This document shows, piece by piece, positions 15,230 to 20,789 of a DNA stretch of 36,323 nt; the first letter of the stretch is position 1; each line of letters starts with the position of its first letter. The translations under genes were made by a program, and so were the position numbers. Source of the stretch: an uncultured SAR86 cluster bacterium (GTDB lineage: Bacteria; Pseudomonadota; Gammaproteobacteria; Magnimaribacterales; Magnimaribacteraceae); contig CACDOC010000010.1 in assembly GCA_902554355.1 (NCBI GenBank), positions 1 through 36,323 on the forward strand, in the 5' to 3' direction. The notes beneath the pieces are model-generated. The model had not been told where the DNA came from and did not search any database. It saw nothing but the letters and a program-made list of their open reading frames with translations.

Positions 15230-17065
15230 ATGTGCGGAATTGTCGGAGTAGCGTCAAATAAGCCTTCAGTTGATAAACTGGTGGCTGGATTACTGCGCCA
15301 AGAATACAGGGGATACGATTCTGCTGGCTTGGCTATTTTTGATGAATCTCAAGAAATAAAAGTTTATAAAAGTACGGGCAAGGTCTCAGAATTACAAAAC
15401 TCAATAGACCAAAACCCCGTCAATGGAAACACTGGTATAGCACACACCAGGTGGGCAACTCATGGCCTGCCTACTACCGAGAATGCACACCCACACCATT
15501 CTAATAAAGAAATTTTTGTGATTCACAACGGCATCATTGAAAATCATCAAGAGATAAGAACTACACTAAAGGCGCTCGGGTATAGTTTTGAATCTGAGAC
15601 TGACACGGAAGTTATAGCTCACTTAATTCATGCAAAGATGTCTCAAAACAATACTTCCCTGGTTGAGTCGTTAAAAGCTGCTGTAAAAGATCTAAGGGGA
15701 GCATATGCCATAGGCGCTATGTCGTCAAAAGAACCCGGACTTGTGGCTGCTGCTAGAAAAGGAAGCCCACTGGTGGTTGGCCATGGCCATGGAGAAAACT
15801 TCATCGCTTCTGATCAATTAGCGCTAGCAGATTTTGCCGAGAATTTTGTTTTCTTAGAGGAGGGAGACTTAGCAGAAATAACACCCACAAACACAAAGTT
15901 TTGGAATTCAGAGGATCAGCAAGTAGACAGACCAGTTGTAGTAGCAAAGTCTTTGGGCGAAACAATAGATAAAGGTGAATACAGGCACTTTATGCTCAAA
16001 GAAATCATGGAGCAACCAGAAAAGATTAAGGGCCTTCTTGAAGGACAGCTAACTGAATCTGGAGTTCAAGAAGAAATATTTGGCCCAGAGGCCCCTGCAG
16101 TTTTTAAACAGGTTGAGTCTGTGCAAATAGTTGCTTGTGGTACGAGCTATCATGCCGGGACAGTTGCTAAATATTGGTTCGAAGGACTTGCCGGACTGCC
16201 CTGCAGTGTTGAAGTGGCCAGTGAGTTTAGATACAGGAACAAAGTAGTGGCTCCAAACACTCTTTTTGTAACGATTTCCCAGTCTGGTGAGACTGCAGAT
16301 ACACTCGCCTGCTTAAGTTCAGCAAAAGATTCAGGTTATTTAGCCAGATTGTGCATTTGCAATGTCCCTTCAAGCTCTTTAGCTAGAGAGTCTGACTTAG
16401 TTTTTCTAACAAAAGCCGGTCCCGAGATTGGTGTGGCCTCAACGAAGGCATTTACCACTCAGCTTGTTGGGCTGCTTATGCTGACTCTAATTCTTGGAAG
16501 ACATCATGGGCTGTCCGCTGCAGCTGAGAATAAAATTAACAATTCTTTAAGGGCCTTACCTGACTCTTTGGATTCTGTTATGAAGCTGGAAAAAGAGATC
16601 ATAGAAATGGCCGAAGACTTCGATCAAAAAGAACACGCTTTATTCTTGGGAAGAGGCATTCACTATCCAGTTGCGATGGAAGGCGCCCTTAAACTAAAAG
16701 AAATTTCATACATTCATGCTGAGGCCTATCCGGCTGGAGAACTAAAACACGGACCACTGGCATTGGTTGATTCCGAGATGCCTGTTGTAGCGGTGGCACC
16801 TAATGACGATTTATTAGAGAAGCTACAATCCAACTTAGAGGAAGTTAGGGCCAGGGGTGGAAAATTATACGTTTTTGGTCACTATGAGGCGCATATTCAA
16901 GATTCAACAATTGCTAGGTTTATAGAATTGCCTGAGATTCCAGAGCTAATAGCTCCACTAATTTATTCCATTCCTCTACAACTTCTTGCGTATCATGTAG
17001 CCATACTCAAGGGTACCGACATTGATCAGCCAAGAAACTTGGCTAAGTCTGTGACTGTAGAGTAG
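15230..17065 (+). CDS. glmS: Glutamine--fructose-6-phosphate aminotransferase (isomerising)
   Basis: GlmS makes glucosamine-6-phosphate from fructose-6-phosphate and glutamine, the committing step of amino-sugar synthesis. The N-terminal glutaminase domain starts MCGIVGVAS with nucleophilic Cys2 exposed after Met removal, followed by HTRWATHGLPTTENAHPH. Two SIS sugar-isomerase domains follow, with CGTSYHAG, TISQSGETADT and EVASEF. The C-terminus GTDIDQPRNLAKSVTVE is the invariant end recognised as DNA by TnsD in Tn7-bearing bacteria. At 611 aa it is full length. It starts 3 nt after glmU. Confidence 0.98.
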   Translation: MCGIVGVASNKPSVDKLVAGLLRQEYRGYDSAGLAIFDESQEIKVYKSTGKVSELQNSIDQNPVNGNTGIAHTRWATHGLPTTENAHPHHSNKEIFVIHNGIIENHQEIRTTLKALGYSFESETDTEVIAHLIHAKMSQNNTSLVESLKAAVKDLRGAYAIGAMSSKEPGLVAAARKGSPLVVGHGHGENFIASDQLALADFAENFVFLEEGDLAEITPTNTKFWNSEDQQVDRPVVVAKSLGETIDKGEYRHFMLKEIMEQPEKIKGLLEGQLTESGVQEEIFGPEAPAVFKQVESVQIVACGTSYHAGTVAKYWFEGLAGLPCSVEVASEFRYRNKVVAPNTLFVTISQSGETADTLACLSSAKDSGYLARLCICNVPSSSLARESDLVFLTKAGPEIGVASTKAFTTQLVGLLMLTLILGRHHGLSAAAENKINNSLRALPDSLDSVMKLEKEIIEMAEDFDQKEHALFLGRGIHYPVAMEGALKLKEISYIHAEAYPAGELKHGPLALVDSEMPVVAVAPNDDLLEKLQSNLEEVRARGGKLYVFGHYEAHIQDSTIARFIELPEIPELIAPLIYSIPLQLLAYHVAILKGTDIDQPRNLAKSVTVE

Positions 17066-17091
17066 GTTTGAATGGCAATTTAAAAATTAAT

Positions 17092-17097
17092 AAGGAG
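17092..17097 (+). promoter_or_regulatory. Shine-Dalgarno sequence deciding an ATT start
   Basis: AAGGAG lies 7 nt before the in-frame ATT at 17105 and more than 70 nt before the first in-frame ATG (17168), which has no properly spaced site of its own. It is the main evidence for the upstream start of the following methyltransferase. Confidence 0.55.
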
Positions 17098-17104
17098 AGT
17101 TAAA

Positions 17105-17812
17105 ATTAATAATTGGCAAAAGGTTTGGAAGAATGACGAAAGGATTAATAGCATTGTTCTGGAGTGTATGGTTAAAGCAAACGGATTTGATGCTGGATCT
17201 GGAAAGTTTAGTGTTCACGATTGGATTACCTATTGTAAGAGTCACTATAAAAAAATAGGCATCAGAACTTCTGACTCTATTTTTGAGATCGGTTGTGGGT
17301 CGGGTGCATTTTTATTTTTGCTGTATAAAAAGCAACATGTGATTGCAGGCATTGATTACTCGCCCGAATTGATAAAGTTGGCAAATAAATTCATGCCCAA
17401 AGCAAATATTAAAGAAAATGATGCAATTTCATTTAGTCAAGATCAGAAATACGATGTTATTGTTAGTCATGGTGTATTTTTGTACTTTGAGAGTTTGCAA
17501 TATGCCGAGGAAGTAATTAAAAGAATGGTTAATACTTCTGTTAAAAAAATTGCAATTTTAGATATATGTGATTTTGACAAGAAAGAGATATATCACGAGG
17601 TAAGAATAAGAGATTTTATAGAAGATGGATATACTGAAGATGAATATTGGAAACGTTATGAAGGATTAGATCATTTGTTTTATACCAAGGATTTTTTTAG
17701 GAATTTAGGTAACCAGCACAATCTAAATACTGAAATTTATGATCAAAATATTGAAAATTATGAATACTATGGAAATTCCAAATTAAGATTCAATGTAATC
17801 TATACCAAGTGA
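17105..17812 (+). CDS. Class I SAM-dependent methyltransferase, probable ATT start
   Basis: This is a small-molecule methyltransferase of unknown substrate. The SAM-binding motif SIFEIGCGSGAFLFLL lies near residue 60-73 of the longer form, followed by acidic motif II GIDYSPELIKLA and motif post-I YDVIVSHGVFLYF. The reading frame is open and protein-like upstream of the ATG at 17168: the codons give INNWQKVWKNDERINSIVLE leading into CMVKANGFDAGSGKFS, a normal opening for this family. No ATG, GTG or TTG exists in that stretch, so ATT at 17105, spaced 7 nt from AAGGAG, is the best start (235 aa). It is visibly more AT-rich than glmS and could have been acquired. If the ATG is real the protein is 214 aa. 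Confidence 0.75.
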   Translation: MNNWQKVWKNDERINSIVLECMVKANGFDAGSGKFSVHDWITYCKSHYKKIGIRTSDSIFEIGCGSGAFLFLLYKKQHVIAGIDYSPELIKLANKFMPKANIKENDAISFSQDQKYDVIVSHGVFLYFESLQYAEEVIKRMVNTSVKKIAILDICDFDKKEIYHEVRIRDFIEDGYTEDEYWKRYEGLDHLFYTKDFFRNLGNQHNLNTEIYDQNIENYEYYGNSKLRFNVIYTK

Positions 17813-17938
17813 AGCTATTTCTAGACAGAAAAAATAGTTATGAAGTAAAAGTCAGGGGATGGCTGGTTTCCTTCTTACCTAGTTAGCACCCATATTTTCC
17901 AATAGATAACTAGAAAGACTAGACGTTTTAAATAAAAA

Positions 17939-18604
17939 ATGGAAACCAAATCAAAATACCTAGTTATTGCAGCTGGAGAAGCAATATTACAGTGGATCAA
18001 TAAAGAACAAACTCTTATTCAAAAACTTAAGAGCTCAGAAACAATGACTTTGGGCGATTTAAAAAAATGGCTTGGATACTGGATGTTGGCTAGAGGAAAT
18101 CCAGTCAACCAAAGAGATAATTTGTTGAAAGGTATTAATGAGTTCTTAAGACCATCAATACTTTCATTCTCAGACGATGAATTACCAAAACAAATTTATT
18201 CTATGGCAAAACAGCTAAAGCACCTGGGCGGCACAACAAGCATTCAGACCAGCTTAGTATCAAAATTTGCATTTTGTATGAGACCCGAATTGATAGTGCC
18301 GATAGATGAAAGAGCAAGAAAGGGGCTTGCATTAATGTACGGTAAGAGAATTGGTGCACATAACTATGAGTCTTACTTCGAATCTTTCCTGCTTTTCAAA
18401 AGAGAGACTGCAGCTGAAATGCAAGGATCCAACCTCCTCGATGATTTAAAGCCTTACTGGAAAAATTATATGAGTGAAGATTTATTTCTATCCAGGACTA
18501 CTGATAAATTCTTAATGCTAGAAGGCGGCTTTAATGTCAAATCCATGGAGAAGAACGTGGGTGATCATTTCGGCAATGATTGGATAGGTAAATATCAGCA
18601 ATAA
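17939..18604 (+). CDS. Conserved hypothetical protein
   Basis: This is a 221-aa soluble protein that I do not recognise with certainty. It has no signal peptide or membrane helix. The most distinctive stretch is LVSKFAFCMRPELIVPIDERARKGLALMYGKR (about residues 110-141). Its pattern (Ser-Lys, a hydrophobic stretch, Pro, then Asp-x-Arg) recalls uncharacterised proteins distantly like helix-hairpin-helix DNA glycosylases. That resemblance is from memory and weak. It stands alone between a methyltransferase and a convergent regulator gene, with a 126-bp leader holding a 7-bp inverted repeat (CTAGTTA at 17879, TAACTAG at 17907). The base composition is AT-rich. Confidence 0.7.
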   Translation: METKSKYLVIAAGEAILQWINKEQTLIQKLKSSETMTLGDLKKWLGYWMLARGNPVNQRDNLLKGINEFLRPSILSFSDDELPKQIYSMAKQLKHLGGTTSIQTSLVSKFAFCMRPELIVPIDERARKGLALMYGKRIGAHNYESYFESFLLFKRETAAEMQGSNLLDDLKPYWKNYMSEDLFLSRTTDKFLMLEGGFNVKSMEKNVGDHFGNDWIGKYQQ

Positions 18605-18675
18605 TGAGATATGCTTGCCGGGCTTTTTGTTTTTGATGTGAGCGTGGCTCAATCAAAGAAAACTAAAAAAAGAAA

Positions 18676-18894
18676 TTAATTTTTGGGTAATTTAAATAAA
18701 TCCTCTACCTTGCACCCAAGAGTTTTGGAAATTTTTAATGCCAGAACGGTAGAAGGGACATATATGCCATTCTCAATTGCATTGATGCTTTTTCTTGAAA
18801 CCTCCGCACTTTCAGATAACTCTTGCTGAGTTAACCCTGCTCCTTTTCGCAGTTCTTCAAGATTGTTTAAAAGTTTTTTATGATTCTTGCCCAA
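18676..18894 (-). CDS. XRE/Cro-type HTH transcriptional regulator
   Basis: This is a 72-aa single-domain DNA-binding protein of the Xre/YozG type. The helix-turn-helix is EELRKGAGLTQQELSESAEVSRKSINAIENG (about 13-43), followed by PSTVLALKISKTLGCKVEDLF, which is typical of small autoregulators. The start is a TTG 2 nt after the stop of the membrane protein gene, so the two are translationally linked. It probably represses the shared promoter region at 19301-19371, where a palindrome is visible. Such regulator/membrane protein pairs are common, but their role is generally unknown. Confidence 0.88.
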   Translation of the reverse strand: MGKNHKKLLNNLEELRKGAGLTQQELSESAEVSRKSINAIENGIYVPSTVLALKISKTLGCKVEDLFKLPKN

Positions 18895-18896
18895 GG

Positions 18897-19286
18897 TTAT
18901 TTCTTTTCGAAGTCTTCAACTGCATTTGTTAATTCTTCACTCGTATTTGGATAAAGATATCCAGCAACCAGAGTGCCTATGCCTATAGCACCTACCAAAT
19001 ACCCAACACCCACGAAGAAAGACCCCATAGCAGTGTAACCAAGAAGACATATACCAATGCCCACAAAAAAAGTTATTACTCCTCCTCTGCGGTAATCTAT
19101 CGGCTCTTTTTTTCTTTCATCCAACATGCCTAACATATCTTCTAGTTTTGATGGATCATCCAGGTTCTTAGATATCTCTATAATTGTTTCGTTCTTGTTT
19201 TTATTTTCATGGTATAGCCAGTAGAAGACAGCCAGCGGAACAATGATTCCAACTGAGATCCCAAAAAGTGGTATTAATAATTCCAT
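18897..19286 (-). CDS. Small integral membrane protein (DUF6249-like)
   Basis: This 129-aa protein has an N-terminal membrane helix (about 4-26, IPLFGISVGIIVPLAVFYWL), a charged cytosolic stretch (28-66) and two further helices (about 68-108) rich in Gly. The layout resembles the DUF6249 family that is often encoded beside an Xre regulator; this assignment is from memory. The ATG has AGGA about 7 nt upstream, and a promoter with TTGTGA and TATAAA at 16-bp spacing lies before it. It is co-transcribed with the XRE gene. A role in membrane stress or signalling would be speculation. Confidence 0.82.
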   Translation of the reverse strand: MELLIPLFGISVGIIVPLAVFYWLYHENKNKNETIIEISKNLDDPSKLEDMLGMLDERKKEPIDYRRGGVITFFVGIGICLLGYTAMGSFFVGVGYLVGAIGIGTLVAGYLYPNTSEELTNAVEDFEKK

Positions 19287-19300
19287 AAGGTTTCCTGTAA

Positions 19301-19328
19301 TTTATAATGTAACGTAAACTTATCACAA
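19301..19328 (-). promoter_or_regulatory. Promoter of the membrane protein-XRE operon
   Basis: On the minus strand TTGTGA (19323-19328) and TATAAA (19301-19306) are separated by 16 bp. The spacer contains the half-site ATGTAA (+ strand, 19307-19312), which also occurs in the neighbouring palindrome. This fits repression by the XRE protein it drives. Confidence 0.6.
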
Positions 19329-19347
19329 TATAAAGGGGAAGTAAAGG

Positions 19348-19360
19348 TTACATTATGTAA
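19348..19360. promoter_or_regulatory. Palindromic operator between divergent promoters
   Basis: TTACATTATGTAA is a perfect 13-bp palindrome around a central T. A further 9-bp inverted match joins TAATGTAAC (19305-19313) to GTTACATTA (19347-19355), so the half-site ATGTAA occurs three times within 54 bp. The sites flank or overlap both divergent promoters, as expected for the adjacent XRE regulator. Confidence 0.6.
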
Positions 19361-19365
19361 TGTTA

Positions 19366-19371
19366 TATAAT
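19366..19371 (+). promoter_or_regulatory. -10 element of the leaderless microprotein
   Basis: Consensus TATAAT lies 6 nt before the ATG at 19378, so the transcript would begin at or next to the start codon. No good -35 is present at 15-18 bp; the region instead carries the palindrome at 19348-19360. Confidence 0.5.
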
Positions 19372-19377
19372 TGTTTT

Positions 19378-19458
19378 ATGAAAAAAAATAGCAACTTTAT
19401 GCTCTGGTTCGTTATCATATTTTTGATGTTTATGTATTGGTGGTTCCTTAATCGATGA
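19378..19458 (+). CDS. 26-residue single-pass membrane microprotein, probably leaderless
   Basis: The ORF opens MKKNSNF, continues with an aromatic and aliphatic membrane segment (about residues 8-24, including LMFMYWWF) and ends LNR before TGA. Positive N-terminus, one helix and short tail are typical of stress-related microproteins. There is no ribosome binding site; the -10 TATAAT ends 6 nt before the ATG, fitting a leaderless mRNA. It is divergent from the DUF6249-like/XRE operon across a shared palindromic operator, and 21 nt before the next gene. Alternatively it is a chance ORF in a leader. Confidence 0.5.
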   Translation: MKKNSNFMLWFVIIFLMFMYWWFLNR

Positions 19459-19479: not shown

Positions 19480-20406
19480 ATGAATGATTTTAAATCTGGA
19501 GACGAAGGGTTAATAGCCTATAAATCTTCTAACCCATTTGAATTTTTTCATATTCTTAATTCCAAAGAGTGTGAAGAGCAAGATATGTTTGGAACCCTTA
19601 TCTTTCCTGAAGAGAAAAAAGAAAAATACCCTTTGGTTATTTGTATGCATGGAAGCTTGGGCTGGAGAGGGCATCATCATGAACATGCGGTCAATTTTTT
19701 AAATAATGGCTTTGCCATCTTTAGAGTAAGTAGTTTTGATGCGAGGCAAGTTTTTTCTATTGTTGAAGATCAAATGCAGGTGACCTTGGCGACAGTGCTT
19801 GCTGATTGTTTTAATGCTTTAAAGATTTTAGCTAAACACCCAGATATTGATTCTTCAAAGGTGTTTATAACCGGATGGAGCCTTGGCGGCAGTACCGCAA
19901 TCTATTCTGCTTGGGAGCCGTTAGCGGAGAAACTAGCACCTGACGGAGAAAGATTTGCAGGGCATTTAGCTTTTTACCCTGGCGCCTTTATGTGGCCAGA
20001 GGAAATGCGGTGGAGTAAATCGCCAATCTTAACCCTTATCGGAGCAGATGATGATTACACCCCTCCAATTCTTATAGAAAAACTATCTCCAGCTATTAAT
20101 GAAAATGGAGGCAACAGTAAAATTATTACTTACGAAGGTGGGCATCACTCCTTTGATGCCATAGATCCTGTAATGTATATACCCAACGCCATAGCGGTTG
20201 GGCGTAGACACACCTATGTTGGGAAAGATGGTTCTCATTACCATGAAGACAAAGAAGGCAAGAAAACATTTATGAATGAACCCCATGAGAGAGCTCAGTT
20301 GTTTAAGGACCGAGCTAAAATAGGAGCTCATTTAGGAGGAAACTGGGAAGCCCGAAGATCATCGATGAAAGATTCTGTTAATTTTTTACTAGAAAACATT
20401 AATTAA
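19480..20406 (+). CDS. Dienelactone hydrolase-like alpha/beta hydrolase
   Basis: This is a 308-aa cytosolic alpha/beta hydrolase. The oxyanion strand VICMHGSLGWRGHHHEHA is followed by the nucleophile elbow GWSLGG with Ser134, the acid in LIGADDDYTP (Asp190-192) and His222/223 in EGGHHSFD. This triad order matches the dienelactone hydrolase/acyl-peptidase-like group. An extra C-terminal region (about 235-308) with YVGKDGSHYHEDKEGKKTF is unusual and might be a lid. AGAGG about 10 nt before the ATG is the ribosome binding site. Substrate unknown. It lies 8 nt before a GFA-family gene. Confidence 0.88.
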   Translation: MNDFKSGDEGLIAYKSSNPFEFFHILNSKECEEQDMFGTLIFPEEKKEKYPLVICMHGSLGWRGHHHEHAVNFLNNGFAIFRVSSFDARQVFSIVEDQMQVTLATVLADCFNALKILAKHPDIDSSKVFITGWSLGGSTAIYSAWEPLAEKLAPDGERFAGHLAFYPGAFMWPEEMRWSKSPILTLIGADDDYTPPILIEKLSPAINENGGNSKIITYEGGHHSFDAIDPVMYIPNAIAVGRRHTYVGKDGSHYHEDKEGKKTFMNEPHERAQLFKDRAKIGAHLGGNWEARRSSMKDSVNFLLENIN

Positions 20407-20414
20407 CAAAAGAT

Positions 20415-20789
20415 ATGAGTGACCAAATCGAAGGGGGTTGTTTTTGCGGATCTGTTCGTTACAGATTCCCAACCAATGATTACCGCTCCTCAAATTGTCA
20501 TTGTTCTATGTGTAGAAGTATTTCGGGAGCTCCTTATGTTGCCTGGATGGCTGTTCCTGTAGATGATTTTGAGTATTTAAAAGGCGAACCAAAAAAACTA
20601 ACATCTTCTTCTCACGGGTCTAGGTATTTTTGTCAGGATTGCGGAACTCCTGTTGTTTGCCTTCTTGAAGAGTATCCTGAATACACCTACATCACCACCT
20701 GTAGTCTAGATAAACCTGAAGATTTTGCTCCCAAAGGCGATATGTATACTGATGACATGCTTCCTTGGGTAAAAAAAGGAAATTTATGA
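20415..20789 (+). CDS. GFA-family (CENP-V/GFA domain) zinc protein
   Basis: This is a 124-aa protein of the glutathione-dependent formaldehyde-activating/centromere protein V fold. The zinc ligands are visible: CFC at 9-11, CHCSMC at 28-33 and CQDC at 73-76, with GGCxCGxVRY and CHCxxCR in the family pattern. Most members have not been shown to act on S-hydroxymethylglutathione, so the substrate is left open. Its stop overlaps the next small ORF by 4 nt (ATGA), giving translational coupling. Confidence 0.93.
   Translation: MSDQIEGGCFCGSVRYRFPTNDYRSSNCHCSMCRSISGAPYVAWMAVPVDDFEYLKGEPKKLTSSSHGSRYFCQDCGTPVVCLLEEYPEYTYITTCSLDKPEDFAPKGDMYTDDMLPWVKKGNL

Follow-up and report, generated by a model that had tools for sequence, protein, structure and literature searches.

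In the cytolysin locus of Enterococcus faecalis, the small XRE-type repressor CylR2 acts at its own promoter, next to a divergent gene, and is paired with a small multi-helix membrane protein, CylR1 (PMC3709268). CylR1 is suspected there of being a membrane protein, three helices are predicted in it, and induction requires it; the route by which the membrane signal passes from CylR1 to CylR2 is described there, in 2013, as not understood; a second article likewise gives CylR1 as needed for induction, by an unknown route (PMC11343131). A regulator is also paired with a membrane protein in the sigma-factor operons that hold DUF6249 (PF19762) proteins, 35-40% identical relatives of the one described below and from the same bacterial family. 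In Bacillus subtilis, the membrane protein SdpI, an immunity protein, is said to sequester its autorepressor SdpR, an ArsR-type protein. Controller proteins of restriction-modification systems, of the C.BclI and C.AhdI type, are self-regulating. A search of one open-licence library for DUF6249, SAR86 microproteins and pairs of XRE and small membrane proteins found no description of such a system or peptide; a paper matched by DUF6249 is, to go by its title, about bean kinases.

Here we describe a locus of an uncultured SAR86 cluster bacterium, contained in a stretch of 36,323 nucleotides that was analysed as a whole (the window). We liken it to CylR1/CylR2 through the CylR2 match of its regulator and the description of CylR1, and claim no membership in that system. 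The two are alike in combining a small CylR2-type XRE protein with a small multi-helix membrane protein, and may also be alike in the position of the regulator's target at its own promoter beside a divergent gene, the operator here being a predicted one. They differ in that the membrane protein here belongs to DUF6249, carries a conserved C-terminal tail and is one of one to several membrane proteins per operon. The divergent side holds a 26-aa peptide and a dienelactone-hydrolase-like gene and not a lantibiotic (cytolysin) operon, and among the eight neighbouring proteins scanned there was neither a lantibiotic-type nor a restriction-modification Pfam match. With SdpI/SdpR the resemblance would be one of working only, a membrane protein and an autorepressor, SdpR being of the ArsR type and the regulator here an XRE protein. 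C.BclI and C.AhdI share the small XRE fold (Foldseek), whereas by sequence the present XRE is nearest to CylR2. In the DUF6249 sigma-factor operons the place of the XRE partner is taken by a sigma factor, accompanied in one locus (L021) by a DUF2807 protein, and the four C-termini read there lack the AVEDFEKK ending. A CylR2 relative present in dozens of marine genomes would make the question of CylR1-CylR2 signalling testable, with a defined putative operator, a natural Lys35/Val35 specificity switch and a conserved membrane-protein tail as useful handles. The locus further extends the known proteins of SAR86-type marine bacteria by a conserved membrane protein of 26 aa.

Gene organization of the locus

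The window belongs to an incomplete assembly (G000; 51% complete, 1.17 Mb). Judging from the list of open reading frames, the genes preceding the locus are probably yidC, mnmE, mnmG, rsmG, parA/parB, the ATP-synthase operon, glmU and glmS. A sequence-only reading of this DNA had pointed out the XRE, membrane protein and 26-aa ORFs, all of which are present in the sequence (Table 1). Its pairing of the XRE and membrane genes in one operon is borne out by comparison with other loci, in which the pair appears together with a conserved operator-like element. The further proposal that the three products form a fixed unit did not hold up: XRE was found in 66 of the 203 genomes of the order and the peptide in nine, only seven of which are among the 66.

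About 1.6 kb of DNA (17065-18676) separates the XRE operon of the window from the glmS 3' end. In SAR92 H231 (L029) the distance is about 0.5 kb, on the opposite side as compared with the window. The glmS 3' end is a common insertion hot spot.

Table 1. Positions in the window of the genes and predicted sites of the locus
Feature	Position	Strand	Basis
XRE/Cro regulator, 72 aa, TTG start	18676..18894	-	ORF and Pfam HTH_3
DUF6249 membrane protein, 129 aa, first gene of the operon	18897..19286	-	ORF and Pfam DUF6249
C-terminal tail GYLYPNTSEELTNAVEDFEKK of the membrane protein	18900..18962	-	alignment of homologues
Predicted operator-promoter element, 45 bp, TGTAACCTTTACTT-N17-AAGTTTACGTTACA	19308..19352	-	conservation
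Predicted operator arm 1, 18 bp; overlaps predicted -35 TTTACT (19340-19345)	19335..19352	-	match in own assembly
Predicted operator arm 2, 18 bp, inverted; overlaps predicted extended -10 TGATAAGTT (19317-19325, minus strand)	19308..19325	+	
Palindrome TTACATTATGTAA	19348..19360	.	conserved only where it overlaps the 45-bp element (19348-19352)
Predicted -10 (TATAAT) for the divergent peptide gene, without a good -35	19366..19371	+	sequence; kept in G002
Single-helix membrane peptide, 26 aa, MKKNSNFMLWFVIIFLMFMYWWFLNR	19378..19458	+	synonymous changes; homologues
Dienelactone-hydrolase-like gene, 21 nt past the peptide	19480..20406	+	Pfam DLH

The XRE regulator and its distribution

The regulator matches Pfam HTH_3 with 52.9 bits (cut-off 23). 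By sequence, its nearest solved chain is CylR2 (phmmer E-value = 3.6e-11, residues 8-68); by fold, CylR2 comes second (Foldseek E-value = 3.8e-5, 45% identity) after an uncharacterised Deinococcus regulator. Sequence and fold matches over the HTH domain mark it as a small XRE protein of the CylR2 type. An AlphaFold model (pLDDT 86) places the predicted recognition helix at residues 34-41. A defence-system reading was considered and rejected, as PADLOC matches the XRE through its HTH domain only; it returned nothing for the membrane protein, a 221-aa protein or the hydrolase.

The count of 66 genomes given above refers to matches with an E-value of 1e-20 or better. Seventeen of them belong to one family (f4), and 13 of these 17 hold the more distant sister type only. 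In a class-wide sample, a match at an E-value of 1e-15 was obtained in two of 369 genomes, both of the same order. The 84 distinct XRE sequences divide into a main lineage (67) and a sister lineage (17), with a length of 70-72 aa in 63/64 of the former and of 83-87 aa in 16 of the 17 of the latter. Two nearly identical loci (L140 and L141) contain a decayed XRE relic that has lost the start of its frame; the 45-bp element described below is absent from both, and no membrane gene was recognised in the 2.5 kb upstream. Near relatives also occur in MAGs labelled Marinimicrobia and Verrucomicrobiales (L028, L031 and L040), which may reflect inter-phylum transfer or misbinned contigs.

A conserved 45-bp element upstream of the operon

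Comparison of the loci reveals an element, TGTAACCTTTACTT-N17-AAGTTTaCGTTACA, upstream of the membrane/XRE operon. The element, which can also be written TGTAACCTTTACTTCtC-N-TGnTAAGTTTaCGTTACA and precedes the first gene of the operon, is made of two inverted 18-bp sites, one at each end, 9 bp apart. It was found in 61 of the 67 distinct main-lineage XRE loci; the six others are four that lie at a contig end with little upstream DNA (L014, L046, L072 and L132) and the two relics. As scans with a 45-bp window cannot show length, the fixed length rests on searches with a free spacer. With the spacer allowed to vary from 8 to 30 the best match has a spacer of 17 in all 61 loci, and with a range of 10 to 27 the same value is obtained in 44 of 47 loci, the remaining three ending at a contig border. 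Leaving the gap of the pattern free in the family genomes gave the same spacing in 15 of 15 cases. Among shuffled upstream stretches, again with the spacer free, six of 76 reach the threshold of 20 out of 28, the largest score being 22. In its own assembly (51% complete) the 18-bp site has two matches with at most two mismatches, both at this locus (control, 0), and the element pattern identifies 15 sites in 14 of 35 family genomes (reversed control, 0). One of the elements (G005) is located at a contig end, divergent to the oxygenase gene that directly precedes the hydrolase in that genome.

A promoter may be proposed inside the element, with a -35 TTTACT, a spacing of 17 bp and an extended -10 TGnTAAGTT; a consensus scan does not list these two boxes, both of which are poor matches. 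Since the predicted -35 and -10 lie within the arms, a bound XRE would block both. The conservation of the element, together with the covariation described in the next section, points to it as a candidate operator.

The sequence-only reading had assigned this role to another feature, the perfect palindrome TTACATTATGTAA. The palindrome does exist; its exact sequence occurs once in the window and in 0/100 shuffles, so that base composition does not explain it. As an operator it had to be rejected: the nearest relative (G002) has TTACATTATAAAA at its position, and it is not conserved across loci, the 25 bases on the palindrome side of the 45-bp element showing 30-69% agreement (55 loci). The TTGTGA and TATAAA hexamers of the proposed minus-strand promoter are likewise present, but the second of them is beyond the conserved element, in sequence that loses its agreement within a few bases. 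The plus-strand TATAAT, in turn, is as reported: 6 nt separate its end from the ATG, and G002 has the same hexamer. Neither promoter is listed by the consensus scan, which returned one promoter-like site against 3.9 expected. Comparison with relatives, the check which that reading had advised, thus went against the palindrome and partly in favour of the 26-aa ORF.

Covariation of residue 35 and the half-sites

Residue 35 comes second in the recognition helix predicted by the XRE model. The comparison includes 61 operators: 54 from loci with Lys35, six from loci with Val35, and one (L043) from a locus with a stop behind residue 27 of the XRE frame. In 54 of 54 Lys35 loci, both arms carry a C at position 6. 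At the six Val35 loci this position is A or G in every case, never C, and the arms are near-perfect 18-bp palindromes (e.g. TGTAAAGTTTACTTTACA). In the tree, the Val35 rows fall together (support 92/75; a single change in 90% of the bootstrap trees), and the covariation therefore counts as one evolutionary event, not six. Scored against the main consensus, the six Val35 elements obtain 21-23 of 28, a range into which the shuffled maximum of 22 falls, so that the standing of these elements rests on fixed spacing, place and symmetry. By linking a residue of the regulator to a base of the half-site, this covariation ties the XRE to the element and points to direct binding and self-control.

Proposed mechanism

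On balance we lean, if only slightly, towards a module resembling CylR2/CylR1, in which the XRE would autorepress, the membrane protein would relay a signal that relieves repression, and the peptide would be an accessory. The two inverted 18-bp sites would span the -35 and -10 of the XRE's own promoter. On binding them, the XRE would repress, rather than activate, the operon, which encodes the XRE itself along with one to several small membrane proteins. By analogy with CylR1, the DUF6249-type protein may sense a membrane signal or relay it to the XRE, releasing repression. The signal would plausibly pass through the conserved C-terminal tail, a step that is the most interesting part of the mechanism as well as its weakest. 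The 26-aa peptide would belong to a set of small membrane proteins that are gained and lost around the XRE.

The DUF6249 membrane protein and its tail

The membrane protein is a member of DUF6249 (PF19762), with 40.6 bits against a gathering cut-off of 33. Its structural model is of low confidence (pLDDT 68; helices at 4-40, 45-58, 65-85, 90-111 and 116-128); Foldseek found no fold match with this weak model (best E-value 1.3), and a search of NCBIfam found no match. Matches to the protein occur in 15 of the 35 family genomes, two of which (G007 and G009) hold only a relative of about 40% identity, without XRE. Among named contigs it is matched at 20 loci, which include SAR92, SAR86, OM182, Luminiphilus and the MAGs labelled Marinimicrobia and Verrucomicrobiales. 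A phage origin was set aside, no relative of the membrane protein being found among viral contigs and none of the peptide in 50,697 phage records.

The N-terminal part of the protein is variable, and 16 of the last 21 columns are invariant among 14 homologues. In a wider set of homologues the tail varies more, around E-[IL]-x-x-AV-x-x-[FY]E. In 60 of 61 loci the tail pattern occurs in the stretch from the operator to xre; the remaining locus (L063), which it misses, has KVVEDFEER. We propose that the tail plausibly contacts the XRE repressor. Class A of the membrane proteins comprises 60 rows, one of which (L030_1) is short and B-like; the tail ending also occurs on proteins of class B (68-77 aa) and, in a looser form, of class C (80-92 aa). 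In the 17 proteins of class D (usually 147 aa) the tail is absent, and no part of them matches class A. The C-terminal half of class A has clear relatives in the class B proteins and weak matches, helices included, in several of class C. Because of these matches, common descent is possible for most of the tails, and a tail on an otherwise unrelated anchor is shown once, by the 81-aa protein of L040, whose match to class A is confined to its last 17 residues (65-81, 88%).

These data are open to a second explanation, which we regard as quite possible, in which the tail belongs to the membrane protein's own fold or assembly, or marks it for turnover, and the XRE autoregulates without the membrane protein. 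Autoregulation alone would explain the operator data, and the likeness of class B, and more weakly of several class C proteins, to the C-terminal half of class A means that the tail may reflect descent. The L040 protein, matching over the tail only, speaks against this second explanation, as does the lineage without a tail gene, whose XRE is longer and changed, though this lineage is a single clade. A bolder explanation makes of the tail a portable docking signal by which a diffusible CylR2-like repressor would be tied to the membrane, with anchors swapped or shortened around a constant regulator, operator and tail, and with micropeptides tuning the anchors. Such a scheme, which if true would amount to one-step membrane-coupled signalling without phosphorylation, seems doubtful because L040 alone has the tail on an anchor otherwise unlike class A.

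Further small membrane proteins are present in several operons (L118, L137, L063, L065, L030 and L074): L118 and L137 have an extra protein of 52-58 aa with the sequence GNWIGVGxAIGAAL, and 147-aa proteins and further kinds also occur. None of the four kinds of extra small membrane proteins scanned scored above a Pfam cut-off.

The lineage without the tail is the sister lineage (L109-L125, family f4), in which the tail was found in none of 17 stretches; these covered at most 2.5 kb in front of xre and 0.5 kb behind it, and less where a contig ends. It keeps Lys35 but not the 45-bp spacing, and at least one arm-like (TGTAAC-type) site is found upstream in 13 of the 17 stretches, in some of them far upstream. 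In the five of these loci that were read downstream, a small lipoprotein-like gene follows the XRE, a neighbourhood that hints at an envelope role; the one such protein scanned, from L112, has sub-cutoff Gly-zipper matches only in Pfam. In L017, L018, L021 and L023, distant DUF6249 proteins have a sigma-70-like gene and a DUF2807-like protein as neighbours. Pfam confirms both for L021 only, where the sigma-70-like neighbour has Sigma70_r2 and r4 matches above cut-off; a lipoprotein-like ORF is also near by in L017 and L018.

The 26-aa membrane peptide

The plus-strand ORF looks like a genuine gene that gene finding by size would overlook, and its conservation in the order supports the sequence-only reading on this point. 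All five base changes with respect to G002 are synonymous third-position changes, the protein being kept in 0.1% of random placements (p 0.001). Among ten pairs of peptide genes, the six with a finite dS above 0 have dN/dS values of 0-0.12 and three are saturated; G106 and G108 differ by two nonsynonymous changes and no synonymous one. The nine genomes counted above are those with convincing homologues (E-value of 1.1e-4 or better, no stop). The count leaves out four weak rows with in-frame stops (a second row of G010, and G005, G036 and G170) and, from a laxer limit of E-value 1, two weak rows of G009, one of them without a stop. A core NFMLWF...FMYWWFL recurs, G118 being the most deviant, and the G157 and G118 peptides have no ATG at the first position.

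In six of the nine genomes the peptide adjoins the XRE operon or sits inside it. It is divergent in G000 and G002, lies between membrane genes in G010, and follows the xre match by about 115 bp in G106 and G108 and by about 190 bp in G169; in these last four genomes it is on the operon strand. In G118 the XRE is elsewhere, and in G150 and G157, both incomplete, no XRE was found at an E-value of 1e-20. For G000 and G002, leaderless translation of the peptide is still reasonable to predict; in G010 the peptide is inside the operon and is preceded by an AGGA run resembling a ribosome site. To judge by this distribution, the peptide is a real but optional accessory of the operon and no constant part of it. 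The hydrolase, which matches Pfam DLH, also occurs in members of the genus that have no peptide. Of its six genomes, three (G003, G004 and G005) have no peptide at this place, and the hydrolase comes directly after an oxygenase gene (DIOX_N and 2OG-FeII_Oxy above cut-off in G004); in G001 the hydrolase search gave no match. Preceded by either peptide or oxygenase, the hydrolase thus has different neighbours within one genus.

We consider it improbable that the locus is a toxin-antitoxin or addiction-like module in which the XRE/membrane pair restrains a toxin, be it the peptide or one of the small membrane proteins. The size and hydrophobicity of the peptide do fit type I toxins, short hydrophobic peptides that an antisense RNA represses, and the XRE has matches in NCBIfam to antitoxins of the HipB type (36.6 bits, cut-off 71.65) and to HigA (19.4 bits, cut-off 47.7). 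All of these antitoxin matches are nevertheless sub-cutoff, which does not make the XRE a type II antitoxin of the HipB/HigA type, and the PADLOC match is through the HTH domain, with none for the membrane protein. Moreover, most XRE genomes are without the peptide, and the incomplete G150 and G157 have the peptide without an XRE at the limit of 1e-20. We give equally little credit to opposite control, whereby the XRE would repress its own operon and activate the peptide-hydrolase side from arm 1 (19335-19352): the peptide gene has a conserved TATAAT and no -35, with arm 1 in that place, but only G000 and G002 of the nine peptide genomes have the divergent layout. Finally, it is very improbable that the 26-aa ORF is untranslated and conserved as a regulatory RNA or a leader of the hydrolase, for although no ribosome site precedes it in the window, the hydrolase begins 21 nt further on and the G106/G108 pair shows nonsynonymous changes alone, the synonymous changes against G002 and the low dN/dS of six pairs indicate coding selection, and homologues occur in other contexts without the hydrolase. 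In G150 (locus L097) the peptide gene directly precedes a gene resembling the GFA-family gene that is the second after the peptide in the window (20415-20789).
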